The notes below the pieces were generated by a model. The model made no database searches. It saw nothing but the letters and a program-made list of their open reading frames with translations, and was not told where the DNA came from. Made by a program: the position numbers and the translations under genes. This document shows, in pieces, positions 1 to 64,000 of a stretch of DNA of 64,000 bases. Source of the DNA: Lytechinus variegatus (lineage: Eukaryota; Echinodermata; Echinoidea; Temnopleuroida; Toxopneustidae); contig NC_054740.1 of assembly GCF_018143015.1 (NCBI RefSeq), positions 39,585,180 to 39,649,179 on the forward strand. Direction: 5' to 3'. The first letter of the stretch is position 1; each line of letters opens with the position of its first letter.

Positions 1-164
1 TATAGAGCGCCATTGACTAGGCAACCAGATAATCGGCATTATTATCACTATAATGAAATCTAAAAGTGATTTATCCTAGTATTATAATGAGAATATGTCA
101 TTTACAATTCAAAGAGCAAAGAGTTTCAGGCCACTGCTGTTGATAGGTGCTGTGAATCTTGCCT

Positions 165-233
165 CCATGTTGCACTGTATTTGCACTACATTTGCTACAG
201 AAAAACATGCAATGCAACTACAATGCACCATGG
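165..233 (-). ncRNA. mir-33: miR-33 precursor hairpin inside an SREBP intron
   Basis: On the minus strand, positions 228 down to 208 read as the canonical miR-33 5p sequence (starts GTGCATTGTAGTTGCATT). The strand folds back on positions about 165-192 with near-continuous pairing: CCATG at 233-229 pairs with CATGG at 169-165, and the stem has two G-A mismatches and several G-U pairs. The loop holds a T5 run. It lies about 500 bp downstream of exon 15 of SREBP in the same orientation, so it should be made from the host intron. miR-33 sits in SREBP introns in vertebrates and insects and, in those animals, represses lipid export and fatty-acid oxidation genes. Its position also supports the host gene continuing past the left edge. 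Confidence 0.96.
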
Positions 234-308
234 CTTCAAGAAAGGAATCCTTGTGAGTCGTGTGGTCATCGTGATGATCGTCCATGTCCTCTGGAGAACT
301 ACCAAACC

Positions 309-416
309 CTGATCTAACTCTGATATACACTAACCAATCACTGAGCTAACCTTGATCCAACACTGATCTAACTCTGATATACACTACCCAATCACTGAGC
401 TAACCTTGATCCAACA
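309..416. repeat. Two-copy 54-bp tandem repeat
   Basis: Units 309-362 and 363-416 are nearly identical (one starts CTGATCTAACTCTGATATAC) and fade rightward into looser CTAACACTG-type copies to about 500. It lies in the SREBP intron that carries miR-33. No function is apparent. Confidence 0.75.
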
Positions 417-732
417 CTACGCTAACACTGCTCCAATACTTAGCTAACACTGACGAAGTCCTACCAGGGACCAATCACTGACCTTACGCTTGCCTAACAC
501 CGATTATCTAACATCGACCTATCGTTGACAGCAATTAAAGCAAATCAAGTACAGAAAATACAAGTACGAAACCAAATCGGTTGGTATTTTCAAATCTGCA
601 TTTCATGTTTTCCTCCTATCTGTCTCCCTCCTCACCAAGGTTGGAGACCTCGTTACAACAATATCAACTACAATGATAAAAATAATTATAATAATGATTA
701 TCATTCATGAATGACATGAGATTGATACTAAC

Positions 733-3700
733 CATAATGGAGCTATCTGCTGAGTAGCAAGCATCCAAGCTGCGTACAAGGTTGCTGCTTGCTAGGTCAC
801 AAATCCTCATACAATCATCAGGTATGTCGTTGTGAGCAGCTGAAAGGAAGGTAAGCCGTGCCTTGCAGGCTTGCAGGGCTGCCAGAGGGAAGCTGTAAAT
901 GATCAAATAAAAACTAGGTATTGAATCAGTCCATGAAGGCCCAAAGATGTGGCTGAATTGGAAGGAAAGAGGGAGGGGGAGGGGGTGGGGAGTTATGGCC
1001 TAGATGTGTTTCATACCTTATATCCCAAAATAAAGGGAAAAGCCACCAATTCTTCGTTTCAAAATACTATACAGTACACCAATGGTGGAGTGCAACAAGT
1101 GTCATGTCCACCAGATGGTGACAAGACATATGCTCCTGCGGCAAATGCACCTGACTTTATTTCGTCTAAGATGTAGGGTTAGGGTTGCAATAGGGTTTTA
1201 TGTTATGTTTAGGGTAAGGTATAGTGTAAAATCTAGGGTTGAAGTTGGTTATTCCATTAGCGTGTGTTGAATTTACGGCGGAGCAATTGTCGGAGGAGCC
1301 AACGCCACGGAACCCAATCAGATATGAGCCCATAAATTTAAATGCAGGTTTCAAAACTCTTGCTGTCGTGCTCCCCAGAAATCTTTCCCAGTATCACGCA
1401 CTATATAAAAGCAGAATATTGCTATTATCACCATTATAACTATCATCACAAGTATTCATAACAGTCCAAGACAAACTTTCAAGTACTCGATGCATAGAAG
1501 TTAGTGTGGTCGAGATAACATAGATGCATTGTTTACCATTCTTTTTGGAGCTGGGGAGGCAGAGAGTCGATGCAGTTTATGTACGTCTCAGCCTTGTCTT
1601 CCTCACCAACATGCCAGTAGGCCGCCACAAACAGCAGGTTAACCCACCAACGAGCGACTGGATCGTACTCTGCAAATAAATTAAAACAAAAATACATTGT
1701 ATGTTTCTTTGTTTTATTTTTTTTTTCTTAGCTTAGTTTTTATTAGGATTTCATGATTTTGTGTAACAAATCACATACAAGTAATTTGAAAATAAAAATA
1801 AAAAAGCAGCATACACATTATAAGTTTAAATAAGAAAAAGTACAGCTTATAAACAGATAATAAGTGATAAATATGTTATAGCAAAGGTAAGCATGTAAAT
1901 AACAGAGGGATAAAAATCAGGTGATTTACCTGTATTAGAGATTTCCATCTTCCGAAGGCATATTAAGATCTTCTTCAGTTACAAAAATCAATAATGATAG
2001 AATATCTTACAACTTAAATCTCCATTTCCAAAAAAAAGGCTTGTAAGTTTATTATTTTTCTTGGCAATACGATATTCAATATCCTTGTTAGAAACAAGAA
2101 AATCCATTGTTACCATGTATCTTTGAAAAAATACAGAACATGAGGATTGGAGTAGAGTCATGGCGAGTTCAAAGTTTGGATACTTTTCAGTTTATAAATG
2201 AATCCTAGCATAAAGTTAGTTCCTTATGGTCTGAAAGTAAAGTGCTGCACTTGATCCTAATGAGGTGAATGGGTACCCGCCAAGATTAATTCTTTGAATG
2301 TACCAAGTGCTGCTAAAGAAGTAGTAGCTTGAGCTTGAGGAAAAATGCCAGTTGTGGTAAATATGTCAAAATGAGTATGAACCGAATCCAATAAAATGAC
2401 AGCAAAGTGTTTGTATGTATGAATCAAATGATTATGGTAAAGTGTGTGTAACTGCTCAGATATTAGCAAAATGGGAATGGAATTCAGCCAAATGTCTGGT
2501 CTTTTCCCAAGCAATTATAATACACTGTCCCACAGGAGCATTTCTGTGTTGGTAACCTTCATTGTGATTCTTATTCAAGCTTAGATTTCATGATAGTGAC
2601 AACTGACCTTGGTTTCAGACATTTCCTGATGACTTTCTAGTGTTTACTGCAACTACATTATTTTATGTTTAATACCTTTGTTACCGACCAACAAAAAACA
2701 TGTACAAATCTCTGACTATAGAGGGCGGACTCACCATTCCTGGCCTGAAGGTTGGAGGTCATATCTACATTCTGCTGATAGAAGCTGGAAGCCTCGTCAA
2801 GAGAAATGCTCAGCCTGTTCAGCTGCATCAGGAAATCTTCATCGACACTGTGAGTACAACAAAAACAATGTGAAAAGAACATAATGGTCAATATAACAAA
2901 ACAGTGAATAGACCAAAAATGATATGAAAACAATATAACACTGAATAGAAAAGTGAAAAGAACAATGCCTATAGTACATACTGTGAATAGAATTTTAAAA
3001 AAGTAAATAGAACATTAACACTGAATATGAAAACCTGTGAATAGATCAAAAATAATGTAAATAAAACAAACTAAATAAAAGCAATGTGAATAAAACAAAA
3101 AATAATGCGAATAGGACAAAACCATGGTGAATAGATCAATAATTTGTATATTTTTGTCTCATGAAATCACCATGTCAATCTTTCATTTTCCAAGCTCGGG
3201 CTTCTATCACTTCTTAGCATTAAAAAAAAATGTTCAAACCTTCCATAACCAGCAATTTGGTGAGTAGAATATGTAAATCAGTAGGGACGACTGTCAAAAT
3301 TATGATGAACTTCAAACGATCAATTTGCAGTTTTCTGAGCAATTATGATTTGTATGATATACCTTGTCTTGGTCTTGTGTGAGTCATGCACTGGCTGTAG
3401 GGCTAAGATACCTCGGAGTGCATTGTGTATCATATGCTCCCTCAGGTGCTGGGATACTACTACCAATGGGTTACCTACAGGCAGAAACATTGAAAGAAGA
3501 CATAAAAAGGGCATAAATATACAACCAAGAGATGACAAATAAAAAGAATGATGCGAGAAATACTGTTTCTTATAGTTTAAGCTTTATCAAGAACTAAATA
3601 TTAAGACATACTGTCTGATGCTGGAATCAGTTCTACAAACTTTACACCCCCACCCTTTTAGGGTTAAGGTTAAACCCAAGGGGTGTTTCACAAGGATTTA

Positions 3701-6700
3701 AGGATGACTTAGAGTCACAACTTAAATGCCGATGCGTGTATGATATGCAACGGGCAATCTTATTGATAAATACGCAGTAGTGCGCATCCTCTTGGCATGA
3801 TCTGACCAATGCGGTCATACGTTTTAAACTGCGCACAACTAGACATTTTAGTGCGACTCTAAGTCATTCTTAAATCTTTGTAAAACAACCCCTGGTGTAC
3901 TTAGTATTGTTTGGGCCAAACCATAACTAGACCATTTTTACAGTCAATTGCAAGTTTATATTGGTCCCTAAATCAATCATAGGTCTTGCAAATAAATTGT
4001 AAATTTGCAAATGATTGCTGGTCTGCTTTCTGCAGCAAGGAGTGTTATCTGATTGGCTACAGCTAAAATTGGTCAATCAGTTGTAAAAAAATGGCAACAT
4101 GATATTTGCATTTGATTGCAAATATTTTCTTGCAACATCCATACGTGGGTTTCAACACGATTGTGTTGGATGACCCATGAATGATACCATCTGCTAGTAG
4201 ACCAAGTGGAAACGATCCCAATGCATACATGCCAACCCCGACAGCCAAGAAATAGGTACAAATTACCAATAAATTACCCCCAAAAAGGAACACACTTCAA
4301 TGTCCTATTCGATACTACTTAAAATGTTTAACATGTATTGTTACATACACATTAAAATTGCAATTTTCTTTGAATCCTGAAAATAAGAACATTTCAATTT
4401 CATAGGAACACTTGGCAGACCGAATTTATATCTATACAGAAAGTTTGTATGGTTGGTATAAGGATTCGATGCAGTCTCGGCCAGTAGTTCCGAGTCACGA
4501 GGCCGCTGCAGAAAGTCTACTCCAATAGAGTTAGCACACATGACTCGGGTTGATGCCGAGGTCAAGGCCAGCAAAATGTGGCCTCAAGCCTGGCATCTAC
4601 TATGAATGGGCATGCTTACAAAGAACGTTTCTTACGTTTCTCTGTGATGGAGGTGAAATAGCTTGGTCCCTGCCAGGAGGTTGGGACGGTATCATGGTGT
4701 CTGAAGTGATGGGAGAAAGCAACCAAGGCCCAGTTCAGAATAGGTGGAGTGGGGCTCTTGGATCGATTCAGGATGTACCGCACTCGGTAGAAAACTGGGC
4801 TCTGTCAAGAAAAAAAAAAAATAATAATCTAGTTGAAAAGAGGTTTGACTCATTGAACACTTTTTGATCTCATGCAGAAGGCTCACTGGGTTAAGCCTAA
4901 GGTTGTTTGAGCAAAACACATCATTGTAAGCTACAAATCACAAATCAAATCATGGGTACAGTATCTTAGGTCCTTTTTACTTTCGATTGACCAAACTTCT
5001 TTTTCTTTAATACTTTGGTTTCATCTACATAACTAGAGAAAACCATTCAACAATACTTCTATCTATTGTCCCATACTGAACTACAAATCATGAATTACAC
5101 TAAAGGTACAAATACTCCTGTCATTTTACTGTTTATTGACAAAATTTCTTCTTTTCATCATTGTAAAAAAATCCATTTGACTCTTCTTTATCTAGTGCCC
5201 CATTCTGAACTACAAATCATGAATTTCATTACATGCCAATATCTTTTTTCGTTTTCACTTTCATATTATTTTTTTAAATCTTATAATGTAAATGCAATTT
5301 GTAATTTGTAGATACCCATCATTTTAACAGAGTTAGACCATGGCCTGAATTAAACAAGACTTCAGAATATGGGCCAATGAACAGAAAGGGGAGACTTACC
5401 GCCAGCCATTGGAGTGATTTCGAGAACCTGGTTCTGATCAGCACCCCTACAGTGGCATAGATCTCGGCCCGTTCAATCGCACTCATAGCATCCCTGGCCC
5501 TCTCAGCATGGTTGATGCTACACATACCCATGTAGAAGGCCCGCGGTACTCCAAGAGAAAAATTAGCTGCACATGGAGGGGAAATAAAAGAGCAATTTGT
5601 TACAAAGAGGAACATGTTCCATAGTTGTTAATAAAAACTAGATGGTCTCACATTCAAAAAGGCTCACAGTACTCCAAGAGGAACAGGGGAGCATGGTGAA
5701 CAGCTGTTCAAAAGTGTGCCAAAGTATGCAGGGCCAACAGAATTGCAGTGGCTGTAGAATACAGGCAGGCTAGGAAGGTAAGGACTACTACCCTGTAACA
5801 CCTGCCAGCATTCCCTGTCCACAATGACAAATAATATTAGGCACAGCATGGCCTGATCAGCCATCTGTAGACCCACCAAGCCTAATTATCCCAAAACTCA
5901 GGATGATTAGATGGTCGCATCGACGGACGAACACATCACTGGAAGGAATGGAAAGAAATGTAGCACAATTCTTGCTCTATCATATAATGGGATTTTGTAC
6001 AACAGTTGCTAGTGAGTACAGGTAAAATTTCAATTTAAATCAATTCAATTCAATGAGAATTAAATGGTCACTCCTCTGCAGTCTGCACAATCAATACTTC
6101 TACCACTGCCATTAAAAAATGTTCAAACACTGCTTGCTAGTTCGCCCCCCCCCCTTTCCATTTTCTCCTTGGTGATATTCCTATTCTTATTCACATTCTT
6201 CTTCTTCTCCTTTTCCTTCTCATATTTCTTCCTCTATAATTCTTATCCTCCTCCTTCCCATTGCTATCGTCTATCCACAACCCCTTTTTATCCTCAAATC
6301 TCTCCAAACAATCTGAATTATTTTCTAGCATTACGTTTCCCCCAAAAGCATTTAAGCTATTACAGAAATATGACCACTTTTTCATATGGCATTTGCATAA
6401 ATGATTGTGTTATATTTGGCTTCAATGTACACACCTGTCAAGAAGAGCTGGACAATGTGGTGGTATGTCTTGGCAATGTCTCTTGCAGTGGTCTGCCCAA
6501 CGGGGTATTCCCCATCCTTCTGCTTGTCCGCCTTCGGCCTGGAGAGCCAGGCACCGATCCCACGGCCCTTGAAGATGAGGTTGAGAGGGAAGCTGAGGAG
6601 GTTCCAGACGAAGGAGGTGTAGTACTCCAGCATCCCCAGAGGATGGTTGCGACCGAGAGCAGCAAAGCAGTGGAAGAGCTGATTCAGAGCCTGGGCAATG

Positions 6701-9700
6701 TTACCCTGATGGTGAAAAAAAAGAAGGAAGATATTGAAGATAAGATTGGGATGGAAGCAAAGAATATTCCAGACGAAGGTGGCATAGTACTCCACCATAC
6801 CCAGAGGATGGCTGAAAACTTATTAACAAGAGCTTCAGAGCACCCATTACCCTGATGTTAGGGGGGGGGAGGGGAAGGGTAATTTCTTGCTATTATTTCT
6901 TACACTTGTGCTTCAGTGTGAGTGTGAAGAACCTGTATACCCTCACTGAATCTCTGTTGGCATGGTGCATTTCTGTCAAAAAGCACTTCGATTCAAAGAA
7001 CTACTGACAGGAGGCCTGCCTAAAACGCCTAAAACGGGACTACCAATTTATAATAAACGACATGTGATATTATCAGCCATCTCTTGTCCACACACACACA
7101 TGTCATGTATTTCATTGGCATATGAAAAAATAATCGAACTTGAAAATGCCATACCACACATTTCTTTATCACTCAAATGTGATTTAGATGACAATTTCAG
7201 AGTTAAGTATGTTGGGTATTCCCTATTTACTCTTTTCCAATCACGTTGACGTCAGAATGGCTATCAACAATTCATTGAAGATATATCCGAGAGTATGAAT
7301 CTAAGAAGCAGAGAGCAGTGTATGGTCCGAGACCCGAGGGTCTGAGATTACAAACAAGGCCAAGATCATTCCGTTCAAGACCAGGATCCTACTTGACACA
7401 CCCATCATGGGCAGAGACTGAACCTACCTTAATAATCTCCTGCTCTGCTTGAGTCCTGTATCGCCAGTAGGCTGTGATATTGACTGATGAACTCTTGGAC
7501 GTCTTGTCGCCATACAGCATTGTTATGAGGACCGTCGCTATGATAGTTCCGTTCATCAACCAAACCAAGAGAGAAGGTACAACCTGCCAGATCAAGGAGA
7601 GGACCCTCGTCTCAACGCCGCTTCCTCCTTCTTCTGTAAGGGACCAAGAGATATCATCAATAGTTGATGAAGTGGATCAAAATTATCAAAATACCAAGGG
7701 TATTGATATTTCTGTCTGTATCATCCCTTCTCAATTATTAGAAAACTTGAGAATTATGAACTAGCAACATTCCCCACACATTAATGTTAATCATGAAAAT
7801 AATGAGGAAAAGGACAAAAAAATATAATTACAAAAGTTTAAAATTATGAACTAGCAACAGTCATCACATATGTATATCTAATACTGAAACCCAACCAAAA
7901 GGGAAAAGGAAAGAAAATGCAACTATTCATGGATAGAATCTGTGCCTATAAAAACACAGCCCATTACAAGTTGATGTGAATTTATCATTTGCTTGTGTAT
8001 CTCTTTCACTTTGGGAATGACTATCAAGTGTACCTTAATCAACCTGCACATAGATATGTTTTAAATTATCTGAAGGCGATTGAAGAAATGAGTTAGCTGT
8101 GTACTAGCTTATTCATCTAAAGCGGTTCAAAATAGTTGAAATAACCAGGGTACAGACATTTCAATTTTATACTGGGCTTTCTCAGTCAGAAGAAAAGTTG
8201 AGAATTGTGAACTGACAACCCAAGAGTAGTCTGAATATTCAGCCTATATTCCCTACCAATGACTTGTGTACAAGTTGTATTTGTGCTAGTTTTGTGTGTA
8301 GATCCACTTGTTAAATCAAACTCTCAATCAGGGTCTGTGCCTGCAGACTATCCATCCCCCTCCCAGGTTCCATGATGATTGCTCAGGCGACAATTGCTCA
8401 TTCTCAATTCCACATAATACTTGAATGACCAACTTCAACCCTGGGTTTAACACTATTGCCTACCCTTAACCTAACCTAAACCTAACATGAAACCCTATTG
8501 CAACCCTAACCCTACAACTAAGATGAAATAAAGCCAAGAGCAATTGTTGCAGGAGCAATTGTCATGTCACCCCCCCCCCTCCCCCCTGGCATGAGATCTT
8601 ACCTCCCATCAGCTTCCTGCCTCCTGCGACCATGGAGTCCCCTCCGAACCCAGTCCCGCTGCCAACCACAAAGCTCTCAAAGCCCTTGTTGATGAGGAAT
8701 CCAAATGGATTAAAGGCAAGGATGGAGAACATGAACACACAGAGGACTAGTCTCGTCCTATCAAGCAGACCCCCCGACGGAGCGGAGTGGACCGGACTTG
8801 GCGGCGACATGTCGATGGGCGAGTCTGGAGCAGAGTATGGTGAATCGGGCTCGCTGCCTGAGACGTAGCAGTGGTCGGGTGAGTTTGTGAAGGACGATGG
8901 TGGGGTCAGAGGCTCCTTCACGTCGGTTACTGTTTATTGAAGAGAGCAAGATATTTACTATTCTCAATTCATAGAGGTAGGCAGCATGTTTCCATTCCTC
9001 AAATTGGCAACTATTATAAATCATTTACATGTGCTCAAATAGCTGTAAAAAAATTATGTTGCCAATTTACAGAGTGTACAATGATTTTCTTTAAAAACAG
9101 CTTTTCACAAAGTGAATCTGACATGGACATGTGAACAAGAAAGTAATGATACATACATTTATCCTTTCACACACAAAAAAGAAAAATCAGAAATAAATCC
9201 CAAACTTGGGTGTGAAATAGTTATATTCAAACTTGATCTAAAAAAATAACAAATGCTTGAAAGCATACTGTAAATATTTCATTGACAAATATTGTCACTG
9301 TTGTAAAGTGAAGTCAATATATATATATCTGCTGGTAGGTATATATTTTGTACCCTGAGCAAACAGAAATAAAGAATAAGTCTTTTCTTCATAGGATGGT
9401 TTCAAGGCTAAATTGTATGAACAATCCTCCAAAACAGAACAGCAATTGTCAATTTACCTGTGGTTATTCCTTTGTATTTGTCAAGCTCTGCTTTAAGAGT
9501 GATGTTTTCCTGCTTGAGGGTTTGACACATCTTCCTCAGACCAACTAGATGATCTATGGCCTTCTGAAGTGTGTGTGACTTTGATACCTGGTAGGATAGT
9601 CATAATTATTACCTGAATGAGGCATTTTGGAGACATGATATAAACGCGTATTTTGTCTGTCTAACTGATTAACTCAACATAAACTACGTCACAATGGCTC

Positions 9701-12700
9701 GGTCAGCGATCAGCTGAATGACGAGTGACCATAATATTCGTACACCCCTCCTCCCAGAAAAGAGTAATTTTCCTACTGCACCTACGTACATTAATAAGCG
9801 GTCCATAATATCCGTATTCCGAGCTCATCAATCCCCAGCGCATTTGTGGGTGCGTATAAAGAGATAAGGATCCGCGCACCAACAATATACGTCATAATAA
9901 AGACAACGCTGGATCCGAGCGCTTGTAAATACGTCATAATGGTAAAGTGCAGAATTGACACTAGAGGCTTGACCAAGGTAAGTCCAACAATTTAGTTATA
10001 AATCTATCAATATGTTAATTTAATGTACCAGAAAGAGGTAACAGGTAATAATAATAATATTGACTGGCGTTACTTTCGGGAGATACCAAAAATATTTCCC
10101 TCACTAGACCCATATTGCCCTCGTCTTCGACTCGGGGCAATATGAGACTAGTTTGGGAAATATATTTGGTATCTCCCTCAAGGCCAGTCAATGTTATAAA
10201 AATATACACTGATTATCAAATAAGAGTCTCAACTGCTTGAGTGATACACATCTTCCTCAGACCAACTAGATGATCTATGGCCTTCTGAAGTGTGTGTGAC
10301 TTTGATACCTGGTAGGATAGTCATAAATATACACTGATTATCAAATAAGAGTCTCAACTGCTTGAGTGATACACATCTTCTTCAGACCAACTAGATGATT
10401 TATGGCCTTCTGAAGTGTGTGTGACTTTGATACCTGATAGGATAGTCATAAATATACACTGATTATTAAAGATGAGTCTTAACTGCTTGAGTGTTTGATA
10501 AATATTACACAAAATGTAAAAGAATTGTAACAAACCATGCTTTATAAAATTCAAGCAAGTCTCTGTATTAACAATTGATAATAAGAGGGGTCAATGCATT
10601 ATTTGCACAAGTTCAGTGCTTCCTCAACTTTTTTTCCAACACTATTTTGGGATTGTCAACACAATTTCCCCACCTTCTTATTCTCTTTGAATAGCATGAC
10701 TTTGAGATCCTCGATCCTGCCATTGATGCTCTTCCGGTAGCGTTGTTCGATAGCATTGTGGGACTTGCGTTTCTCAGGCTTCTTTCCCATGTGCATGGCG
10801 CCCCCATTAGGCGAGGAGGAGAGAGGTGGGATGGCAATCTTGGACACGGAGTTAGTGGTGGTGGTGGACTCCGTGGACTTAATCATCGGACTGGAGACGG
10901 TTGCCATGGTGGAGCCAACAATGGCAACATTCCCAACACTGCCATTTTGTGAAGTTTGGATGACCAACTAAAGTAGATAAACAAAGATGGAGTATGTTAC
11001 AAATGGCAAATCCTGGCTCCTAACTTAACCAGAAATAATCTTAAATTAACCTTATATGACATTCCATTATGTAAACAAGAAAAAAAGTTTTTTTTTTAAT
11101 AAGTTTTTCCCATAATCTAGAATGATTTGCTGCATTAAAAACAAAGACTTCCATTGAATTCTTAAATCTCTTATAACATTCAGGTAGAATGGAACTCAAC
11201 CTTGAAAACATAACACTTGCACACACTCTACGCATTGGACCTCATACTTGTAATGTAATAGTACATATGTGAACACTGTGTACAATCCCTCTGAGCATTA
11301 TCCAACCAACATGGCGATCCTTTATAAATTCTGCATGTAACTGGAAAAGTTTTTAGCAAGATATTGTATTCATGCTAAATATAAAGCTTTGTGAAATATG
11401 AACCTTGATGTATGCTGTTTTAAAATTTTCCAATCCTTTCATAATACCCCATCAGATCATCACTTCCGATTCCAGACATGAATTGATTTCAAAAAGATTT
11501 GTTTTCTAACATGTAATGGTGTTGTAGGTTGTCAAGTTATCCAACAAAACTACCTACCTGTGGGACTGTGGTGACAGTGGGTTTGGTCTCCTGTTTGATT
11601 ACTTGGACATTCGGGATGGTGGTTTTCTGAAGAGACAACGGAATAACCTTCTGCTGCACAGGCTGTTGCTGTTGGGACACAGTTGCGACCTTCTGCTGCT
11701 GCAACTGGGTTGTGATCTGTGGTTGTGTAGTAGTCTGTAATAAAGATAATATTACATTTTTACAATTTTTTAAAACTTTCCAAGGCTACTTTTGAGCTTA
11801 CCAGCTACATTTTTTCAGGCCTACAGTTTACCTTGGACCCTATTAGGAATTTCAGGTGACTTTTTTTCTTTAGTTTCCAGAGCTCTTTGGGGCTAATTAG
11901 CCCCTTGCCTGTATAATTCTCCCACTTGGTGCACTAGTGCCCTTTGGTTAGACATTAATCCTTATTACCAGTTCCCTTGGAGAGAACCTTACTAAGCTGT
12001 CAGTCCTCTGGTTGCTTGCTTCCAAACATTCATGCTTTCTTAGAATTCAGGTAAAAAAAAAATTACCACCATTTCCAATTTACCATAATTTACCATTCTT
12101 TCCCTGCCATGTTCATTTTGACCAGTGCTAACTGCCATCCAAATGACTAATTACCAAGAGTTAAAGGCAAATTTGCCTTGCCCTCCCTGAGCACTTCCAG
12201 CAAAGGCTCAACTGGTACCAACATGAGCATGTATTAGAAAAAAAAAGAGAGATTGTCTTGAACTTTACCTGCAGAGTAGACATGACCAAGGGCTGTTGAG
12301 ACTGTTGCTGAACCTGCTGCTGTTGCTGTTGTTGCTGTAACTGCAGTATCAGCGCCAACTGGGCAATGGTCTTGTTCTGTAGCTGCTTCTGTTGTTCCTT
12401 CTGGACCAGCTGCTGGATGACCTCACTTGCCGTAGCCGGTCGAACGGTGGCAGCCGGGGCCACTGGTGCACTGACCAGCTGGGTGACCGGTCCTGTGGGT
12501 GGGGCCGGAGCTGCAGGAGTCGCGACATTGTTGACTGAAGTCTGGATACACATACAAAACAGAAATAATACAAAGAGGGAGTGAGTAGTTTATCATAGAT
12601 CCATGGACATTAATAAAAACAAACTTTAATAGGGACAGTGATTTTCCGCGATTGCGGAAAACGGACGGAATTCACGGAAAGAGCCTTTTGAAACGGAAAG

Positions 12701-18700: not shown

Positions 18701-21700
18701 CATAACTCAATATGATTACATTGTGTATCCATGTCGATCTTACTGTAATAAAAGTATGGCAGTCGAATAAATTTGTCTTTTAAAAGAAGTTTCGTGGAGT
18801 CTTTTCTGTCTATTCTACTTTCTTATTAGATCACCTGCGGTAAATTGAAAAAGTAGTTTCACATCAAACGTTGATAACACATTGCATTTGAAAACACGTG
18901 CGCACACATTCGCACACCGCTTGCGATCAATTTTGCTCTATAATGTAAACTTGATTGCTGGTTGATTTCTGCGGATTTTCTCAGGGGTAGTCAACATTAA
19001 TTGTTAGCTAGGTCAAGATGGCATCAAATTCTGCAAAGAAACGAAAGGTGGACGCTGAAAATCGTGTTTTCAATGAAGAATGGACGGACAAATATGCATT
19101 TATTTTGCCGCAATCGAGCACAAGGCCGATGTGTTTGATTTGCTCGGAAACTGTCAGCGTTTCTAAAAATGCTAATTTAAAGCGTCACTACGATTCCAAG
19201 CACAACCGATTTGAGCAACAATACCCACAGAACACAGAGATAAGGGAAACTAAAATAAATCAGTTGAAATCTTCCTATGAATCTTCCAGCAGCCAGTTTG
19301 TTAGATGTGTGACACAACAACAAAAAGCAACTGAAGCTTCCCTCCGTGTGGCCTGGGTTCTGGGTAAAAACAAGAAACCGTTTACTGATTCAGAACTAGT
19401 GAAGGAATGTTTGAATGAGGTTGTTGATTCCATGTTTACAGGGAAGGAAAGACAGGATTTATCAGATAAATTCAAACAAATTCCATTATCCAACAGCACT
19501 TCTACTCGGAGAACAGAACTACAGGCGGATGATGTTCTGCAGCAACTGACTGGTGATTTGAACAATGCAGAATACATTGCCCTTGCATTGGATGAATCAA
19601 CTGATAACACAGATAAAGTACAACTTTGTGTCTTCGTCAGATACTTCAGTAAGGCCAAAGCTGAAATTTGCGAAGACATACTTGGCCTAATACCACTGCT
19701 TGGTCGTACAAGAGGAGAGGATATTTATGAAGCCATCATGGAGATGCTACGAGACAGGGGAATCGATATCAAGAAAGTTGTGTCAGTTGCAACTGATGGT
19801 GCGCCAGCAATGATTGGGAGAGAGAAGGGAGTTGTTAGCCGTTTGAAAGAGCATCAACCACACATGTTGTCCTATCACTGTATCATACATCAGTCAGTAT
19901 TATGTGCCAGTCTTGGGAATGAGTACGCAGATGCAATGGAAACCATCATGAAACTAGTGAACTACTTGAGAGCATCTTCTGCACTTCAGCATCGTCTCCT
20001 GAGATCATTCCTGAATGAGGTGAAGAGAATACTTATCTATTTCAAGACATTGGTTATTCGTCATTATTTGTATTATCTTTCAGTATATCTCAGTATAAAA
20101 AATTTCTGGACCTGGTGTAGAATAAATCGAAAATATTTCTGTACAATTTGTATTAAACATCTCAGAATATGCGAAATAAATACACACAAAATACAAAAAA
20201 CATAGATAGATACATTACCTCCAGATCTCTCTTGTTAATACATGTTCAAACCAAAAAAATCCAATAATATTGAAAGATAAACGTAGATAGAGACCAGGGA
20301 GGAAGAAATCTAAACTTTATCAACAAATAGAATAAGCGCCTGTATGAAGAATGGTCCATCACAAATTATTAAACTTATCATTCCCTTTTTCTAACCAGGT
20401 CAATGCATCTTATGATGACTTACTCCTTCATAACAATGTAAGATGGCTAAGTAAGGGACAGGTCCTGGGAAGGTTCTGGGCCATTAAGAAAGACCTTGAA
20501 ATGTTTCTGTCACAGCAGACTACTGCCAAAGCCAGGCAGTTCCTGGACTATCTCCGTGATGACAACAAAATGGAACTTGTGGCTTTCCTGGTGGACATAA
20601 CATCTCATTTGAATGAGTTTAATCTCAAGCTCCAAGGTCAGGGCAGTACTGTGTGTGACCTGATGACAGCTGTGCGTTCTTTTGAGAGGCGACTGGAGCT
20701 CTTCAAGAATGATATCACAGAGGCACACCTCCATTTCCCAACTCTACTTGGTCACACTAATGGCAATCATCATCATGACCATGTTTCATTCCTGGAGAAA
20801 TTGGCTGACAATTTCAAATCTCGCTTCAGTGACTTTTGTGTAGGGAAGCAAGTACTTCTTTGCATCGGGTCACCATTCCTTGTGAAGGACCTTGTGGAAC
20901 TTTCAAGAGAGACCACGAGCATCTTCCCATGGGCAAACGCTGGGAAACTGCAGACAGAAATGATTGATCTCCAGGAGAATTTGTCTCTGAAGGAGAGTAG
21001 TTGTGATCATGTGACTTTCTGGACAAAGGTGGTTCCAGCAACATCATTTCCAACATTGCACAAAGTGTCTATTGCTGTTCTCACCATGTTTGGATCTACA
21101 TACAGGTGCGAAAGTGCATTTTCCACAATGAACATTTTAAAGAACTCGTACCGAAGCACCTTGACCAGTGAACATTTGCACCAGTGCCTTCGTCTGGCAA
21201 TTACACATTTTGTGCCAAGGTTCAAGCAACTTGTTGCTGACAAACAGTGTCACTTTTCCCATTGAAAGTGACTAAGAGACTGGCACCCTTATTAGAGTCT
21301 GCAAGAGACATATATACTCCATTATCCAATCTAATTTGACTACAAAAAATATTGATACTTCAAGACATTATCTGTCTCCTTAATACCAGGTATGTATAGA
21401 TACAATCTAGATTTATTTTAAAAAGTACTACAATATTTGTTATCATCACTATTGACTCTTGCTGTATTTTGAAATCTTTTTTAATTTTGCCTGTGTTCCA
21501 AATGAAAATGTTATAAATTTGTTGGATTAAAAGCTCCCAAAATAAGGGCCAGAATGCCAAGTGAGAATCTAGGACCCCGGCCACAAGGGTCTTTGCGCTT
21601 CGCGCACATTTTTTTTCTAAGTACCCACTTGACCCTGGCCCTTTCAGGTTTACTTGGAGTCTCATCTGGCCCTTCAAAGAAAAAGTTTGAGAACCCCTGT

Positions 21701-24700
21701 ACTAGAGTATTGTGACTTCTATCACACTAAGTTACAAGTTGCCAAATGAAATACTTTCAGAGAATTCTCAACTTGAAAAAAATGTTTTAAAAATTGTCTT
21801 TTTTCTGCGTCCCATACGTAACGGCCCATCTTTTCTCTACGCTAAAAGGTCAAGGTCACATCTCACCATTTTTTGCATGATTATTCTTCTCCTAGACGTC
21901 TACCATCATGAGGGTATTCAATCTAATTGAAGTCAATTAACACTATTTTTCAGGTCATTAAAGCTTCTGAAATGTCCCATACGTAACGCGCGCGAATTCT
22001 TGGACTTGCCCACTAGCATTTACCTTTAACAGAGCTGCCAACCTGAAAAGGAACATTTCAGTACCGGTATTTTTGAAGCTGAAAATCAGTATTTCGGTGA
22101 GGAAATCAGTATTTTCAAAAAATACCATAGGACCACACATACAACTGAAACTTTAGAAATCAGTATTTTACATGAAACTATCAGTATTCTTCTCACTTTT
22201 CAGTACTAAATACTGAAAATCAGTACTACTTGGTAGCTCTGCTTTAATACCAATTTGCATGAAGTGAATTACTGTATAGTTTTGTATCTTTTGCATCCAA
22301 CACAGGAAAAAAATGCTCAAAAGAGCCCTCTAAACTAAAAATTCCCATTTATCACAATGTCAAAATGTATCTTCTGTAGCAGATTAGAAAGTTGCGAACA
22401 GTAGGCCCCCCCCCAAAAAAAAAAAAAATTACATATATACAGTGCGTCCAACAAAAAATGAATGCGAAATTTAGAAATGATTTATCATAGTTTAATCCTG
22501 AATACAACAGACAAATGACCTACCAATGTAAAGATTAGAATCTCCTCTTTCATCTTAACTTATAAATTATTCCTCATTCATGCATGAGTAAGCAAAAAAT
22601 ATGAAGAAAGGATCCAATAAACTCATTTGGCAGGGGGGATCTGAATTTCAAAAGAAAATCACATGCCTAAAGTTCAATACAGGTGTATCTGCTCTTTTAT
22701 TTGATACCTTAATCACAGAAAATAGTCAAGAAGTAAAAAAGTTCTGCTTCCTCAAAACAATGCTTGTATTTCCATACTTTCGGTAAATAAACATGTTTTC
22801 ACCGGTTTTCCCACAGAAACTATCGCACGGTTAAAGACTTAATGCATGGCTGATCGTCAACAAAACGGAGTGTCGAGTGATTCTGAACACTAGCCTGTAA
22901 AACCTTTTCATTTTATGAAATTATTGAAATTCAAGACTTATTTCAAATAACCAGAACTTTGTTATTTCTTGACCATTTTCTGAAATTGAGGTATCAAATC
23001 ATAGAGCAGATAGCCAGATATTGAACTAATAATATGATTTTCTTTTTGAAACCCAGAATCCCAGATACAGCCTGCCGAGTGACTCTTTGATATCCCCTCT
23101 TCAAATTGTTTTTGCCCACTCATGCGTGAATGATGAATAATCTAAGTAATTTCAGATGAAAGAGGAGATTCTAAGCCTTACAATGGTAGGTCATAAAGAT
23201 TAAGTCATGATAAATCATCAATAAATCTTGGCTTCGTTTTTTGTGGGACGCACTGTATATACATGTAGATAAAAAAAAATAATAATTTCTTGCCTGATCC
23301 AACGGTGGATAATGTACGTGTTACGGTATATGATTAAAAAAGTTGCTGTTTACTTTCATGGATGCACATCATGCACATGATCATGAAATGTAATTACGTA
23401 CACAACATCAATCAATTTCTACAAAGAGATACATGTATACTGCATACTTTGGACTGATATTTGACAGATCAAACAACAGTATACAAAAGTAGTCAGTCTC
23501 AATTTCCTTTACCTTTGCCTCATGATCTGAATGTAGGCCAGCAGGCCTGTAATAGCACTATGCATTTTTAATACCACATGGCGTAAATCTTAACAATGTT
23601 GCGATCGATAAAATATGCAATATGATCTTTTGACCCCTTGATGACCTTTGACCTATTACCGGACCTATTATAAGACATTTCAAAAACTAAACCTTGTTTA
23701 CATGTACACTGTATGATTCAATGCTGACGAGGCTGCCGTCACAAAAAAGATAATTTTCAGTTTATTTCACTCTCGTTTTACATGTACCTACGTGTAAGTC
23801 AACACATGGGAATACAATATTTGTACATCATCTGAACAGTTTTCAAAGAAATGTGGAAATTAGATCATGCATTTCATGGATGTAAAGATGTGAAATGTGA
23901 AATTTCAGCAAATTTTGGAGTAGGTTTTTTTTTTGTCCCATACAGTGAAAACAGTTGTTCATATAGTCCTGAAAACGTTTTATGCTTTTAACAACCATTT
24001 GAATGGCATTTAAAGTTTTGAATTCAGTCCTAATGGATACTTGGGGCTGAAATAAAAAAGTTGAAATAAAGCTCACCTGTGGTTGCTGTTGTTGGTTGTT
24101 GAGTAGTAAGGCGACCAGATTGGTAAGCTCTGACGATACACTCACACTCCCATTGTTGACCGCTTCCGTTGACTTGGGTGCCACAATAACCTGCTGAGGC
24201 TGATTCTGCTGAGCAATCTGCAAGTCGGGCACTTGTTGCAGTGACTGTTGCTGTTGCAGCAACTGTTGCTGTTGTTGTGCTTGCAACAACTGCTGTGCCT
24301 GCTGCTGTTGTTGTAGCTGCAGCTGCAGGGTCTGCTGCCCTTGTGGTTGGACCAGTTGTGGCATCTCCTGGTTGTTGAACATGCCGGTCAATTCTTCCTC
24401 GCTCATCCCCAGGAGGCGCTCTTCGGAAAGGTCCGAGTAATCTGTCATGTTCATGTTGAAGGACAAGTCTGAGAAACTCATGTCCTCTGCAAAAAAAAAA
24501 TGAACATCAAATCATTTGTTTTGCATCTACTCTCAATTTTCAACAGACCTGTTTAATTTTTTTTGTGCTTCCTTTTTGGCAAACATCACATGTACAGGGT
24601 GTTTCGTTATAATTAGCATCATTATTCTGAACCAAAAGCTTTAGTCTCTGTTTCAACAGTTGTTCCACTGGACTATATCTTGTTTTACTACAATCCCTCC

Positions 24701-32109: not shown

Positions 32110-35100
32110 ATGTCGATGACAGTGAAAGCATACCTGAAGCGGGGAGAGAACGCAAATGCAGAGATTCGTCGCTTTGTGATTGACGTTGCTGTGAGTTCAA
32201 ACTATGAATACCTTTCGAAGAAGGTAGCTCAAGTATTTCCGTCTCTGGGTGACCCCGACAATTTCACTCTCTCCTGGAAAGGTAATATATATTTTTTAAT
32301 TCATAAACATATACATAAAGTTATAAATCAATTCAACTGGTCCATTCATTTTTCCAATTCACTGAAATAGAAAATAAAGAAATTTAATATAAAAGATAAT
32401 CATCATTAAATAGTACTTTTATTATAATACACTATATGATCAGACAAATGGGTTGTTCCCCGCCCCAACTATTTATTTTGTTTGCTTTTTAACTTTAATT
32501 TTTGTTATATATATTTTATTAATGTGATAGTTTGACATTAAAGACACTATAAATGGATCAATGTGTAGGGGACTATTGGTGATTCTCATTCGCTTATAGG
32601 ACATAAATTGTTTATTGTTTTTTCCATAATTATAGATTCCGACGGAGACAACATCACTTTCTCCAGCAATGATGAGTTGGTAGAAGCCTTGGGTCAGATA
32701 AATGATGACATCTTCCGGATCTATGTCAAAGGTCAGTATGTCTTTGTTATCAAAAGTAGACTATTCAATATCATGAGTATTGTTTCAGTAATGACATGAT
32801 ATATTATTCTCATCATTGTTGTTTGTATCATAATTTATTATTATCGTTTCTGTTATTAGTAGTATTTGTAGTAGAATTATAAAATGATTTATATTGTTAT
32901 GAAATTATTTTCATTTTTGTTTGCTCTTAATTACTATTTTTATTATTACTATCATCATCATTGTTATCATCATCATATTTCATGATTATTGTTAACTATG
33001 GTTATAATTATTGTAAGAATATTATTATTGTATGGAGAACATAATTAAATTTGAAGTGGCTCATCAGAAATCAAAATCAAGACTTTCATGAAAGTTACCA
33101 TGATAATATTAGGCTTTATGGAATTTAACTTTTATGTTTTTCAGTAAATGATTCTGTTATTTTCCTTGAAATGAAGTATTATAGTTAATTGCATGATTTG
33201 ATTACCAATCAATACTGTTATATCTATGGGGGTGGGGGGGGTATGAGAATATCAGAATCCAACATATTTTCATATCCCTCAGTCTGTCATCTTTATTTCA
33301 TTTGACATCACATGATAAATCCTTTTATATAGTGCATTATACCTTTCAAAAAGGTCAAAAGAAAAAAAGAAAAGGTGAAGGAAAACCAAGCTGGAAATGT
33401 TATGATGGTATTATCATCATATTATGACATTATTAGAATATTACTCTGATTTCATTTAAAAATCATATAACATTGTTACTATGATTATATTATTTGTTAT
33501 TATCATGTTCTTACATTAATATTTTCTATGATATTGTTATTATAGCATTACTATAATGATCTTATAATTATATCTCTACATATATGAAAATATCATTATC
33601 ATATTATAAATATTTTATTTGGTGAAATAGGGAAGAAGAAGTGTTCCCGTGAAGCCCCGTCTACCAGTTCTGATGACGGCGGTCGGGAGGAGCAGGTGTA
33701 CCACCCAGGCGTAATCTGCGACGGGTGCGAGAGTCGAATCCGCGGTCCGCGGTTCAAGTGCATCACTTGCCCCGACTATGACCTGTGTAAGCAGTGCGAA
33801 TCCCGAGGCACCCACCCGGAGCACAGTTTCGTCAAGTTCCGCAAGCCTCAAGTCGGCCGCAGCCACCACGGTGTAAGTATCGAAGTGCCCATTTTCTGTC
33901 TTGGGTGTATATACTTTTCATCCACATTTTTGTCCGACAGCTCCCAGATTGGACATTCTTCCTTGATTCTTGTTTGGTTGAGAAATTATGTTACTGTGCT
34001 AACTGTCGGTCCGACAAGTCCTTTCATGAAACACTTGATCCCCTGATTTGCCACACACCATAGAGGTAGTGTTATTTTCTGGAGACACTTGTTCAGTTTC
34101 TCTTTGTCCTGAGTACCTGCAATCACACATGGAATATGATTAGACTGTGAAAACCATTGTATACTGAAAATGTTGATACCATTTTCAGTGTATAATAAGT
34201 TGCCATTCCTGGATTTATGCCATTTCCCTAAAGCTAATCACTAATCATTCTAATTCTACATTTGTGATGTCATGTGGTCCCATGTGATAAGAACAACAAA
34301 TCACTTAAAAATGTAAATTGGCATGTTTTTGTTATAGCCCTGCTATTATCACTGATTTTGCCTTGTTTATTACCGATATCTATTTTATGTATCCAAAGTA
34401 TAAAGAAATAATAAATAATCAGTGCTGTAAAGATTGTTGTCAATTTAAAATGTCAAAGCAGATTAATGTTGACCATATCAGTTGTGTACCGCTGTAATGA
34501 AAAGGATATAGTTGATAAAAAAGTGATGTTGATCAGCCTAAGAGAAACTTTTATATCTTTTAGGACTAAGGCAGTAGTCTATTCAGAAAAATTTAATTTA
34601 TTTTTTCTTTTTTCTTTTGCAACACAGGGATTTTTCAACAGACCTGGGATGTTCCGCCAGTTTGGTCACCCTGGCTGGCGTCACTGGTGGCAGTGGAACC
34701 AACAACAGCAGCAGCAACAGCAGGAGCAGCAGGAGGGTGGTACCCAATCTACTACCCAACAGGAGCAGACCCAGGGGGCTGGTGGCTCTCAAAACAATGG
34801 AGGCTGTCCCATGGGCCCAGGTCCCTTCTGCCCCCCTCCTCCCCCACCCCCAGGGTGTCACATGCCACCCCCACCCCCACCTCCACCCCATGCTTTCCTG
34901 AGGGACATCGGACAGACCGTTGCCCAGATGCTTGACCCTCTAGGTAAGATGAGATGTCAACAGAGTTGTGATAGAAAAAAAACAACTCTTTTTCTTTTCA
35001 TTTAAACAATATTTTCCCCATTCTGAAACATTTTAGATCGTTTTGAAAATAGATGATTTGAATTTAGTCCTCATCTGCTGGATGTTTTAAACCTGGTTTA

Positions 35101-59574: not shown

Positions 59575-62500
59575 TTGCTTCATGATAACTCCCATGCAGT
59601 TACACCTCTTTTTTTGAAGTCCACCAAGAGATTCTACCCTCGTTCCAATGCCATCTAAAATTTTGTAGACAGTTTCCTTGTTGATGTGAATATCACACTC
59701 GAATCTTTACAACAAAACGTTCATAATTATGAAGGTAAAAATAATTGTATGGTAATGAAAGACAATCCAAATATAATATTTTATATGTTAGAAATTTCAG
59801 CAAATATTGGAGTTAAATACATTACATCCTGATTAGTCTGTTTGAAAGTTAGCCGATTTGTGATTGGTTGACTTGAGGAGTTCTATGATTTATTAATTAA
59901 TAAATCCTTTTAATGAGATCAAGGCTGAGGATAATTCACAAAAACGACACTGAAACCGGCACTGAAAACATAATTATTTCAGTTACCAGAAAGTCATTCA
60001 GATTATATCAATCATATTCAAATCATATCAGAAATATGATATTTACTGGAATTTATATGCATCGTGTGTTTGGTGAGCCTTTACCAATACAGTTCCTAGA
60101 TGACAATTTATACCACCTTCTTAAAATGGAAAAAAAAATAAAAATAAAACGTGACATAAAACGCTGGATTGTAGTGAACCCTTGGGCTTTATCCATTACT
60201 TGTTGAAAGTTTCTGCGTCTCTTTGTGAGTACTATGTACCAGATCAGTGTTAAAGTTCAATAGAAATAAAATTAACCTTAGTCGTTTGAAAGATTTAATG
60301 CCCTTGCAGAATTCTACAATGTCGATCAAGCTCTCGGCATATTCCATCTTGATCTCAACCATACACAAGGTCTCAAGCTGCGTCGCTTTCTGTTGGATTG
60401 TACTCCCAAACTTCTCGCATGTTGACTTTGACACAGTCGATCCATTGGTGTTGAGTAGCCCATTGATCTCTATCCATCGAAGCGTGTGGCCCATCTCAAT
60501 AAGACTGTGCGTGATCCAGTCTAAGGCCTGGTCTAGGTTGTCCTCATTCCCAATCCAAATCTCGACATCTTCCACAGCTGGAAGGCCCTGGGTATTTATG
60601 GAAACAAATAAATTTTAGATATTTTTTTTAATGTGGGGATGATAAAACATATTAATATTGTTGACCTGTTTTATTTTACCTTTAACTCTTAATGAATCCA
60701 TAATCAAGATTTATTCTGTCTGTTTCCTATATGCATGGACTTATTAGAAATGGACACTCATCGAATAGTTAACGAATTCACTACCATGTGAACGTCATTG
60801 TGCTCTGATAGCATTCTCTTAATATTTTCTGCTTACCGTGTTACGCCGTCAAATAGGCCATGAGTCGAAGCAGTTTATATGATTATACATTGATATTGCA
60901 TAAACTGTATGTGCAGAAGATGATGAATCACTTAAAACTCCTGGAAAATCGAAGTGCATTTGGCAATTTTAGTTCTATGTGTTTTATTTGGGAAAATTTA
61001 TGCATATTTTAAGAAAGAGGCAATATTGTGATTAATAGTCTGTTATTCATAAGCCAATTTTCCTCCTAATATTCCAGAGATACATGACTCATATCGTGTA
61101 TAGAGAGCGTTTATCTCTTAATGTCATTGAGGATATGTGTGTGCGGATCAAATAGTAACGTAATTTATGTCACAAAATCGTCTGCTTCTTAGCTTTGCTG
61201 CTTCAAATCTAAAGCATGTTGATTGAAAAGTATTTTCTGACAGCACAGGGCATCAGCCAACCATGGACCTATGAGCCAACAAAACCAAAACCAGGAAAGC
61301 TGTGCCTTTGTAGATGATCAGCTACGGCTTGGTAGTCGCTATATTGTCAAATATGTTGCGGCGGATCTCGTTCGAGCAAAGAAAATAATAATAGCGTTGA
61401 ATGCTCTTCTCTAACTGGTCCATGATGTGTCTTGAAATATAGTAGTTAAAAGCACAGAGGCATTGCATGCTGAAATAAAAACTTTTTGTGCAGGTTTTGT
61501 TCTGGGTTTTTGTATGCGTTATCATATAGAGTCGTGAATTGTGGTACATTGAGTCCTCTCAAAAGAGATTGATTAAAAAATCGTATCGAAACCCCCGCGC
61601 CGATTCGTTTTTTTTTTATTTACCCTTGTGAGATGATTGAACGTCTCCTCTTGAAGGGACCAAGCCTCTAATCGACGCACGGATCGGAGGGGTGGGAGAA
61701 GCTTACCATTCTCTACATTTATGGAGGAGCTGTTCAAATACAAGCTGCAGAGGTTGTCAAATGATGATAGACAAGACCAAAGTCGGGTTGTCATGGTGAC
61801 CGAAAGATTTGTGCTGCACAAAGCAACGGATGTGATCTGAAATTTGAAAAGATTGGGGTGAAACTAGAAGTTAACTCGAGTTGCATAAATAGAAAGTAAT
61901 GCAGTCGTTTCGCAAAATAGAATATAAATGTGATCATTAGTATAAGCTTTTTATTTCAAATGCTTTATCATTCAAATTCGTATAATCTATAGGAAGGCAT
62001 GCTTTTCATATCTATATCCAATCCCTATATCCCTTGCCTGACCTGTGTGTAATTTTTGTTTTAATTATTCGTCGCAAGACGCCTTGGTAGAATTATTATG
62101 TTCATTTTTCCTGGTTATAATTAATAATCAATATTTAGTTATTTAATTTCACATTTTTTTTCAATCAAGAATTATACAGTTACGAAATAATAATCTCTAC
62201 AATATAGATGAAGATTTGTAAATTTGAGTAAATTAAACTTTATTACCGCTCTATTGGCTACCTGTGGTAGCCTTTCCAAACCAGTCATCATCATATCAGT
62301 AAGAGGATAGAGATCAACTTTGCCATCCCAGAAACACTTTCTCAAGGCGCTGGCCACACTGTCATCTACATAAGATCTATCTGCTTCCAAGAGACAGCGC
62401 AACACCAAACGGCATTTATAGTAGAGAACGAAGTCCTTAACCTGATTGGCAATGTGTCTAAAGACGGACAGACAGGCTGGTCTGTTAGCACCTGCAATGA

Positions 62501-63847
62501 AGCAAAGTACATTCTCCAGTTCTAGGGTTTTAGCTACTGTGTTGACTTCTTTGGCCAACAACGAGTCAAGTTTTGATGGGCTTCTGAACTTGATGTAACG
62601 ACTCTCTCGGGTGATGCCTAGTCGTCGCATGTAAATACTCGCACAATATTCCTGCTGAAGTTTGTGAAAGAATTCAACCGTTGTCTTTGACGTTTGGCGA
62701 TTTACCAGATGTTTAATGGGAATTTTGGAAGCAGAAAGGATTCCTAGCTTAATGCCTATTTTGTAAGCATCAGGATAATGTTTGAAATCTTCTACTTGAA
62801 AAACAAGCTTCTTGCTATCACTTCGAAGTCCATCAAATGCAAATTTACCCAAATCATATAGAATATCTTCAAGTTTTGCCTCGCTTGGTAAGAGTGATGG
62901 AACCTCTTTAGCTAATGCGTGTTGAAGCAAGAATTGGTTTATGCTATCAAACAGACTTGTCAGTGAATGAGCGTTAGATAAAGCTTCCACTTCGTATAAG
63001 TGACACACCATAGTACAGAACAATGGGACTTTGATCAAGCTTTCCAGAAACTTATTATTGCCGATATACTTGATGAGTTCTCTACCACCGTTGGAACTTG
63101 ATCTTGCTTGAAAATACCGTCTGATAAACTGTACGGATGAATCTGAGCTAAACCCTTCGATGGACATCTTGGTGTATATCCTTGACAGTTCCCCTTGGCT
63201 AAAATCTCCCTCCAGGTATGGTCGAGTGGTAACGAGAACTCTGCAGTTCTTCAGCCTATTGTTCCTGAGAACTTTCGTCAGACTCGTGATTGTCGACTTG
63301 ACACTTCCTTTGAACTCATCATATCCATCAAATATGAGAGCGCATGACTCTTGATGCATCTCAAGAAAGTTTTCTATTAATTCCGAAGTAACACCAAAAG
63401 TTTCACCTAAGAGCTGTGAGATGATGGTTTCACCCAAAGACATAGATTCCTCAACCTCCCTGAATTTTAAAACGAAGAGTGCTTTCAAACCTTTCATGGG
63501 TGATCCATCGATTTGGTGCAACCAATCATATGCCAATTTTGCGACTGCACATGTCTTACCATGACCACCGGGTGCCGTTAAAATAATACGTTTAGGGAAT
63601 TGGCCATCGATTTGAGTTCCAAAGATGCCATTAACCGAACCTTTCAATGGTGTCTTCTGAAACTGCCCCGTACTTCGGTCAAACTTAACAAGATTGATAT
63701 CCGTAAATAAATGTTTCAGATCTGCGAAGTCATTTGGGTCCCAAGGCCTACGTTGAATTTGACAAAGGACAGTCTTGTATTGGTCTTTCAGTACTTTACG
63801 GAGGTAGTTGAAGGAAAGCATTGGTTGGGATGGTATCGGCTTGGGGT
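59575..63847 (-). CDS. NACHT-LRR receptor (NLR-type), partial at both ends
   Basis: Exons 62262-63847, 61624-61836, 60277-60587 and 59575-59704 have matching phases. The large exon opens after a CTTCAG acceptor, so N-terminal exons (a DEATH or similar domain in echinoderm relatives) should lie right of the window. It encodes a NACHT NTPase: Walker A APGGHGKT, Walker B ALIFDGYDEF, sensor VLVTTRP, then winged-helix-type sequence. The later exons encode leucine-rich-repeat-like pieces (LCSLYLNSSSINVENGKLL in part; LETLCMVEIKMEYAESL). Such proteins are cytosolic danger sensors, and sea urchins have very many. A donor at 62246 is an alternative to 62261, also in phase. An in-frame Met at 63915-63917 with a hydrophobic stretch is probably intronic. 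The 3' end is not seen; the last exon's donor (GTCAGT) is modest. Confidence 0.85.
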
Positions 63848-64000
63848 CTGAAGTGAGGGTAAAAGAAAAAAATGTTAGTACAATTTGCCATAAAAATGAT
63901 TTAGTGAAGAATACCATCTGGCTTATTAATATGAATCGAAAATAAGAGAATTCACAGGAACATCCAACAAAACAAATAATTGGACAGAAAAAAAACTATT

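Follow-up and report, generated by a model that had tools for sequence, protein, structure and literature searches.

An intronic miR-33 on the sense strand of the SREBP gene of the sea urchin Lytechinus variegatus

In this study we found a miR-33 hairpin in Lytechinus variegatus, near one end of a 64-kb stretch of DNA (the window, by which we mean the whole stretch that was analysed). The microRNA lies on the sense strand inside an intron of the SREBP gene and has coding exons on both sides (Table 1). This arrangement is best explained by a conserved intronic microRNA that is transcribed together with SREBP and processed by Drosha, a reading to which we give a probability of about 0.82. The hairpin, its family, its strand, the intron borders and the downstream exons were observed directly; transcription of miR-33 from the SREBP promoter, its processing and its targets are the parts that we infer. 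Most likely, the SREBP primary transcript carries the miR-33 hairpin. Drosha would excise the hairpin from the intron, either ahead of splicing or in its course, after which the 5p strand would be loaded by Dicer and Argonaute. In this sense, one SREBP transcript may yield both the activator and miR-33, and the cell would make a lipid-synthesis activator and a microRNA together.

A different possibility is that miR-33, although located in the SREBP intron, is transcribed from an intronic promoter of its own, which would leave the two products uncoupled. Data from other animals speak in its favor: the oyster miRNA and its host are described as weakly co-expressed (r = 0.58) in the extracts of PMC4138081, and those of PMC3953336 report no co-regulation across 10 chicken tissues. 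Against it, the sea urchin miR-33 lies on the same strand as SREBP, and the same miR-33/SREBP pairing is found in several phyla. We consider an independent promoter quite unlikely and favor co-transcription with SREBP.

Table 1. Features of the miR-33/SREBP locus. Positions are those of the window, and negative positions lie to the left of its base 1.
Feature	Position	Strand	Details and evidence
pre-miR-33 hairpin	165-233	minus	Rfam RF00667 and fold
miR-33-5p mature sequence, predicted guide strand	208-228	minus	exact 21-nt string GTGCATTGTAGTTGCATTGCA; seed UGCAUUG
Host intron, part in window	1-732	minus	continues to -408 (contig position 39584771); splice sites and in-frame joining
SREBP exon directly 5' of the miR-33 intron	733-892	minus	160 nt; encodes FPLAALQACKARL...YSADSSIM; splice sites and translation
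SREBP exon directly 3' of the miR-33 intron	-409 to -697	minus	left of base 1; tblastn E 4.4e-16
Last SREBP exon	-921 to -1171	minus	ends at TGA stop; tblastn E 9.8e-11
SREBP exon	1537-1669	minus	133 nt; EYDPVARWWVNLLFVAAYWH...; tblastn 1542-1664, E 2.7e-5; splice sites
SREBP exon	2735-2847	minus	113 nt; VDEDFLMQLNRLSISLDEASSFYQQNVDMTSNLQARN; splice sites and in-frame joining; no tblastn match of its own
tblastn match in gene order	3392-3625	minus	E 0.27
SREBP C-terminal domain exon, approximate ends	5403-5531	minus	tblastn E 0.006
SREBP C-terminal domain exon, approximate ends	6433-6708	minus	tblastn E 1.3e-8
Open frame, second membrane-like segment	7392-7676	minus	LIWQVVPSLLVWLMNGTIIATVLITMLYGD, RVLS just ahead; translation; weak tblastn match 7428-7514, E 0.61
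Open frame, first membrane-like segment	8565-8933	minus	LLDRTRLVLCVFMFSILAFNPF; translation
Open frame, second half of bHLH-zipper	9411-9599	minus	SKSHTLQKAIDHLVGLRKMCQTLKQENITLKAELDKYK; translation
bHLH DNA-binding exon with SREBP-type tyrosine	10659-10967	minus	HNAIEQRYRKSIN; Pfam HLH 29.1 bits
Open frame, likely glutamine-rich SREBP exon	12164-12589	minus	translation, order and strand only
Likely N-terminal SREBP exon	23846-24511	minus	MSFSDLSFNMNMTDYSDLSEERLLGMSEEELTGMF...; translation, order and strand only

The miR-33 hairpin and its copy number

The Rfam mir-33 model (RF00667) aligned over its whole length (model positions 1-69 of 69) to window positions 233-165 of the minus strand with 67.8 bits and an E value of 8.3e-14, the curated gathering score of the family being 50 bits, and no other Rfam match in the 64-kb window reached the gathering threshold. 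The 21-nt 5p arm GTGCATTGTAGTTGCATTGCA (228-208, minus) is identical, letter by letter, to the Rfam mir-33 consensus along the arm. Both results bear out the original prediction, made from the sequence of this DNA, of a complete miR-33 5p at 208-228 of the minus strand in a well-paired hairpin. The pairing was also clear in folding, where the 101 nt of 150-250 gave -40.5 kcal/mol. The mean of 200 dinucleotide shuffles was -24.2 (z -4.99), and none of them folded as stably. The hairpin core was unchanged when 20 to 150 nt of flanking sequence were added, and the stem is imperfect, as is typical for miRNAs, with the mature arm intact.

The optional Microprocessor motifs include a basal UG at -14 and a CNNC located 16-18 nt past the cut. 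In pre-miR-33 a CNNC motif starts +16 nt past the predicted 3' Drosha cut, a weak sign as there are three permitted positions, each matched by chance about 1 in 16 times, and the cut site is itself predicted. The canonical basal UG is absent at -14 of the predicted cut, where UU is found instead. The antisense strand of the hairpin (165-233, plus) scores 43.6 bits as mir-33, below the cut-off; an antisense miRNA from this strand is possible but unsupported.

A genome-wide search with RF00667 covered 869,567,369 bases in 33 contigs, and 67 of 153,591 first-look candidates were scored. COX1 is carried by a contig of 15,693 bases. The search returned four mir-33 matches, with 67.8 bits for the minus strand of the miR-33 locus, 43.6 bits for its plus strand and 40.7 bits for each of two other places, so that among the 67 candidates scored 165-233 of the minus strand is the sole locus over the mir-33 cut-off in the genome. 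A DNA search of the genome with the hairpin, in which common words are skipped, gave one match, the hairpin itself. A single miR-33 copy with SREBP as its host is well supported in this sea urchin.

The two places at 40.7 bits (L002 and L003, on contigs 3 and 2) are near-perfect 66-nt palindromes of identical sequence on opposite strands. We rejected them as further mir-33 loci and take them as MITE-like, given their near-perfect palindromes and different stem sequence; they constitute a trap for low-threshold miRNA searches in the Lytechinus variegatus genome. As such palindromes of the same genome reach weak mir-33 scores, the hairpin might itself be a dead or chance inverted repeat, for example a MITE, that resembles miR-33, but this is very improbable for a sequence with a single DNA match, a whole mature arm intact, 67.8 bits and an imperfect stem of the miRNA type.

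The host intron and the SREBP gene

The host intron has 1,141 nt, is of phase 0 and GT-AG type, and lies close to the 3' end of SREBP, a gene read from the same strand as miR-33. Its donor is GTTAGT at 732 and its acceptor ATCTAG, ending at -408. Between the upstream exon and the hairpin there are 499 nt, and between the hairpin and the downstream exon 573 nt. The former distance is, to one nucleotide, the 500 bp at which the microRNA had been predicted downstream of a same-strand SREBP exon, here 733-892. A mirtron was considered and rejected on account of both distances.

Exon 733-892 has the borders TTACAG/CTTCCC and ATTATG/GTTAGT. In the adjoining 10 kb to the left of the window, where a further SREBP exon had been suspected, two 3' exons were found. 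The five exons 2735-2847, 1537-1669, 733-892, -409 to -697 and -921 to -1171 join in frame to a stop; AG precedes each of them and GT follows all but the last. Because the two 3' exons to the left of base 1 join in frame to the stop, the miR-33 hairpin is truly intronic. Rather than ending before base 733, the SREBP gene as predicted appears to continue through these downstream exons.

The C-terminal part of human SREBP-1, in an uncurated version, was used as tblastn query with the composition correction and the low-complexity filter off. Eight of the 14 matches up to E 10 are on the minus strand and in gene order (E 4e-16 to 0.61), the last two of them outside the window (-412 to -699, E 4.4e-16, and -926 to -1114, E 9.8e-11), and the remaining six either break this order or lie on the opposite strand (E 1.8 to 9.2). 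Exon 733-892 reaches only E 0.12 when taken alone (match 718-888) and is collinear with the other exons. Exon -409 to -697 has one protein match genome-wide, which is itself. The probable identity of the C-terminal half of the host gene rests on this uncurated human sequence.

Upstream, the bHLH exon finds its best solved structure in SREBP-1A (1am9, E 4e-5), MITF and TFEB ranking lower, and its basic region HNAIEQRYRKSIN carries a tyrosine in place of arginine, which we take to be the SREBP-type hallmark. We also recognised by eye two membrane-like segments in the translated frames; the segment LLDRTRLVLCVFMFSILAFNPF presumably corresponds to SREBP TM1, and the frame 7392-7676 resembles, in our view, the site-1-protease/TM2 region. 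The joined C-terminal protein matched no Pfam family with E <=0.01 and no relevant solved structure, a match to 3jqh being taken as a chance coiled-repeat match, and the 135-aa piece from the Met of 23846-24511 had no Pfam family better than E 0.41. That SREBP hosts miR-33, as the original prediction had it, agrees with the bHLH match to SREBP-1A and with C-terminal exons collinear with the uncurated human SREBP-1. Another bHLH-zipper gene as host, a reading that could draw on the uncurated query and on a C-terminal protein lacking a Pfam match at E <=0.01 or a relevant solved structure, is hardly credible against a bHLH closest to SREBP-1A with its SREBP-type tyrosine, two membrane-like segments and C-terminal exon matches that follow one another collinearly and reach E 4e-16.

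Parts of the SREBP exons are present more than once in the gene. A 125-bp unit with part of the leucine-zipper exon occurs in three copies (10200-10449 and 9479-9603, minus-strand reading). Two of them stand in tandem at 10200-10449, between the bHLH and zipper exons, and are 98% alike; the third, probably the working exon, is 76% alike. The extra copies read VSKSHTLQKAI(D/N)HLVGL(R/K)KMC, then ITQAVETLI and a stop, and splicing them in would yield a truncated factor that lacks the membrane segments, but they are more likely decayed exon duplicates than used exons. Also, an 81-nt part of a C-terminal exon (HPLGMLEYYTSFVWNLL...) at 6569-6649 is repeated at 6734-6814, 165 bp apart and with 81% identity, and is a second partial exon duplication within the SREBP gene.

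Other features were seen in the window. Pieces of a hAT-type transposase (zf-C2H2_12, a sub-threshold DUF4371 and Dimer_Tnp_hAT) occupy two open frames at 19012-21262 of the plus strand, in a likely SREBP intron and opposite to its strand. A ZZ zinc-finger exon (33588-34043, plus, E 3e-11) is followed by low-complexity frames within about 2 kb and belongs to a gene that we assume to be of the p62/SQSTM1 type. A 607-aa open frame with a NACHT domain (62175-63995, minus, E 5e-18) presumably belongs to the NLR-type genes, which are expanded in sea urchins.

Comparison with known miR-33/SREBP units

The DNA had been taken for likely echinoderm, and matches to Pfam Bindin narrow this to a sea urchin. 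Bindin is a sea urchin sperm protein, and two loci on contig 13 match it with E 4.0e-66 and 6.7e-64, with the N-terminal part about 1 kb from each; the family was absent from 14 control genomes, of which those named are bacteria and archaea and so provide no control among animals.

According to the extracts of PMC5027541, miR-33 lies inside an SREBP intron in vertebrates and Drosophila, so that its occurrence in vertebrates and insects, already assumed in the original prediction, is in print; extracts of PMC3953336 and PMC3675212 also describe the vertebrate case. In the oyster Crassostrea gigas, cgi-miR-33 was located in an intron of SREBF-1 (CGI_10004108), sequenced and its expression measured (PMC4138081, in the portion available). 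The oyster is likewise a marine invertebrate whose SREBP gene has miR-33 in an intron, with the difference that the sea urchin unit is known here from the genome alone. Drosophila resembles the sea urchin in having a single SREBP gene with an intronic miR-33, as the excerpted text of PMC5027541 has it. The vertebrate pairs miR-33a/SREBF2 and miR-33b/SREBF1 are like the sea urchin unit in miRNA family, host family, strand and an intron near the 3' end of the gene, but vertebrates have two gene/miRNA units whereas one gene and one miRNA copy were found in the sea urchin. SREBF2 has 19 exons with miR-33a in intron 16, and should, by this count, have three exons after the host intron, in contrast to two in the sea urchin.

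The original prediction had also argued from this locus that the pairing dates from the bilaterian ancestor. The pairing in vertebrates, Drosophila and oyster favors such an origin, but the inference is neither new nor dependent on the sea urchin window, because the insect, mollusc and vertebrate cases were already known. The sea urchin miR-33/SREBP unit adds one animal group to a known, ancient arrangement. Among the matches listed from the open-licence literature, in the parts available, we found no statement on miR-33 in an echinoderm SREBP, and miRNA databases may well list it; in a small-RNA paper on sea urchin and sea star (PMC3247247), mir-33 is absent from the main text.

We add to this picture that the two exons on either side of the sea urchin host intron appear to correspond to those that flank the vertebrate miR-33b intron. 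Human miR-33b is placed in SREBF1 intron 16 in the extracts of PMC4058878, which print primers for exons 16 and 17 of mouse Srebf1, and the intron number varies between sources, being 17 in those of PMC5027541. When the printed mouse primers are translated, the exon 16 primer gives RAALYSF and the exon 17 primer gives PASVQV, in one frame of three each. In an uncurated vertebrate SREBP-1 sequence, these peptides should fall in the stretches that match sea urchin exons 733-892 and -409 to -697. RAALYSF scores 15 on the last sea urchin exon versus 14 on 733-892, and short peptides alone do not pick out exons. On partly uncurated vertebrate sequence, then, the sea urchin and vertebrate miR-33b host introns are probably the same, separating the same two exons.

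Target sites and significance of the unit

In vertebrates, miR-33 represses sterol export and fatty-acid oxidation. We looked for target sites in the stretches downstream of loci found by a genome search with Pfam (Carn_acyltransf, R1_ABCA1, Thiolase_C and CPT_N); a search with AdenylateSensor, for AMPK, had no match anywhere, which says nothing about AMPK. Twelve stretches were used: those of the five strongest of eight ABCA C-terminal matches, of CPT1, of two other carnitine-acyltransferase loci and of four of seven thiolase loci. The two carnitine-acyltransferase loci were taken from about eight non-CPT1 ones, the rest having no terminal-exon match or no downstream sequence, and two of the four thiolase loci encode an identical terminal peptide. 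L054, which has no site, and L049 and L050, where the gene end was not reached, were left out of the seed count, and in L041, L043 and L044 the open frame probably continues into intron sequence, such that these stretches may not be UTR.

The 7mer seed site of miR-33, CAATGCA, was found zero times in the 12 stretches (22,252 nt) 3' of ABCA-, CPT1-, carnitine-acyltransferase- and thiolase-like genes, the UTRs of which are unannotated. Over the 420 possible orders of these seven bases, the mean in the 22,252 nt is 1.10 sites, and 39% of the orders likewise have zero. The count gives no support for vertebrate-type targets, and it would neither support nor exclude conserved ones. At the CPT1 locus, one 7mer seed site (L064, position 1108) lies upstream of the last recognisable exon (frame 1407-1520), probably in an intron. 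Past the SREBP stop, a seed site at 2,273 nt is the only one within 4 kb. It may be that miR-33 has been kept in one SREBP intron since before the echinoderm/chordate split while its targets changed, and that these are no longer of the ABCA/CPT1 type in sea urchins, a tentative idea that we hold to be unlikely. If it were true, activator and microRNA would have remained physically linked after the target set that is said to explain the linkage had gone.

The finding extends the miR-33/SREBP unit to a non-chordate deuterostome, which stands between the vertebrate cases on one side and the insect and mollusc ones on the other. Inheritance of the arrangement thereby becomes more likely than its repeated insertion. 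Furthermore, with one copy of each part found, the sea urchin is a simple system for asking if the linkage of miR-33 with SREBP itself matters.
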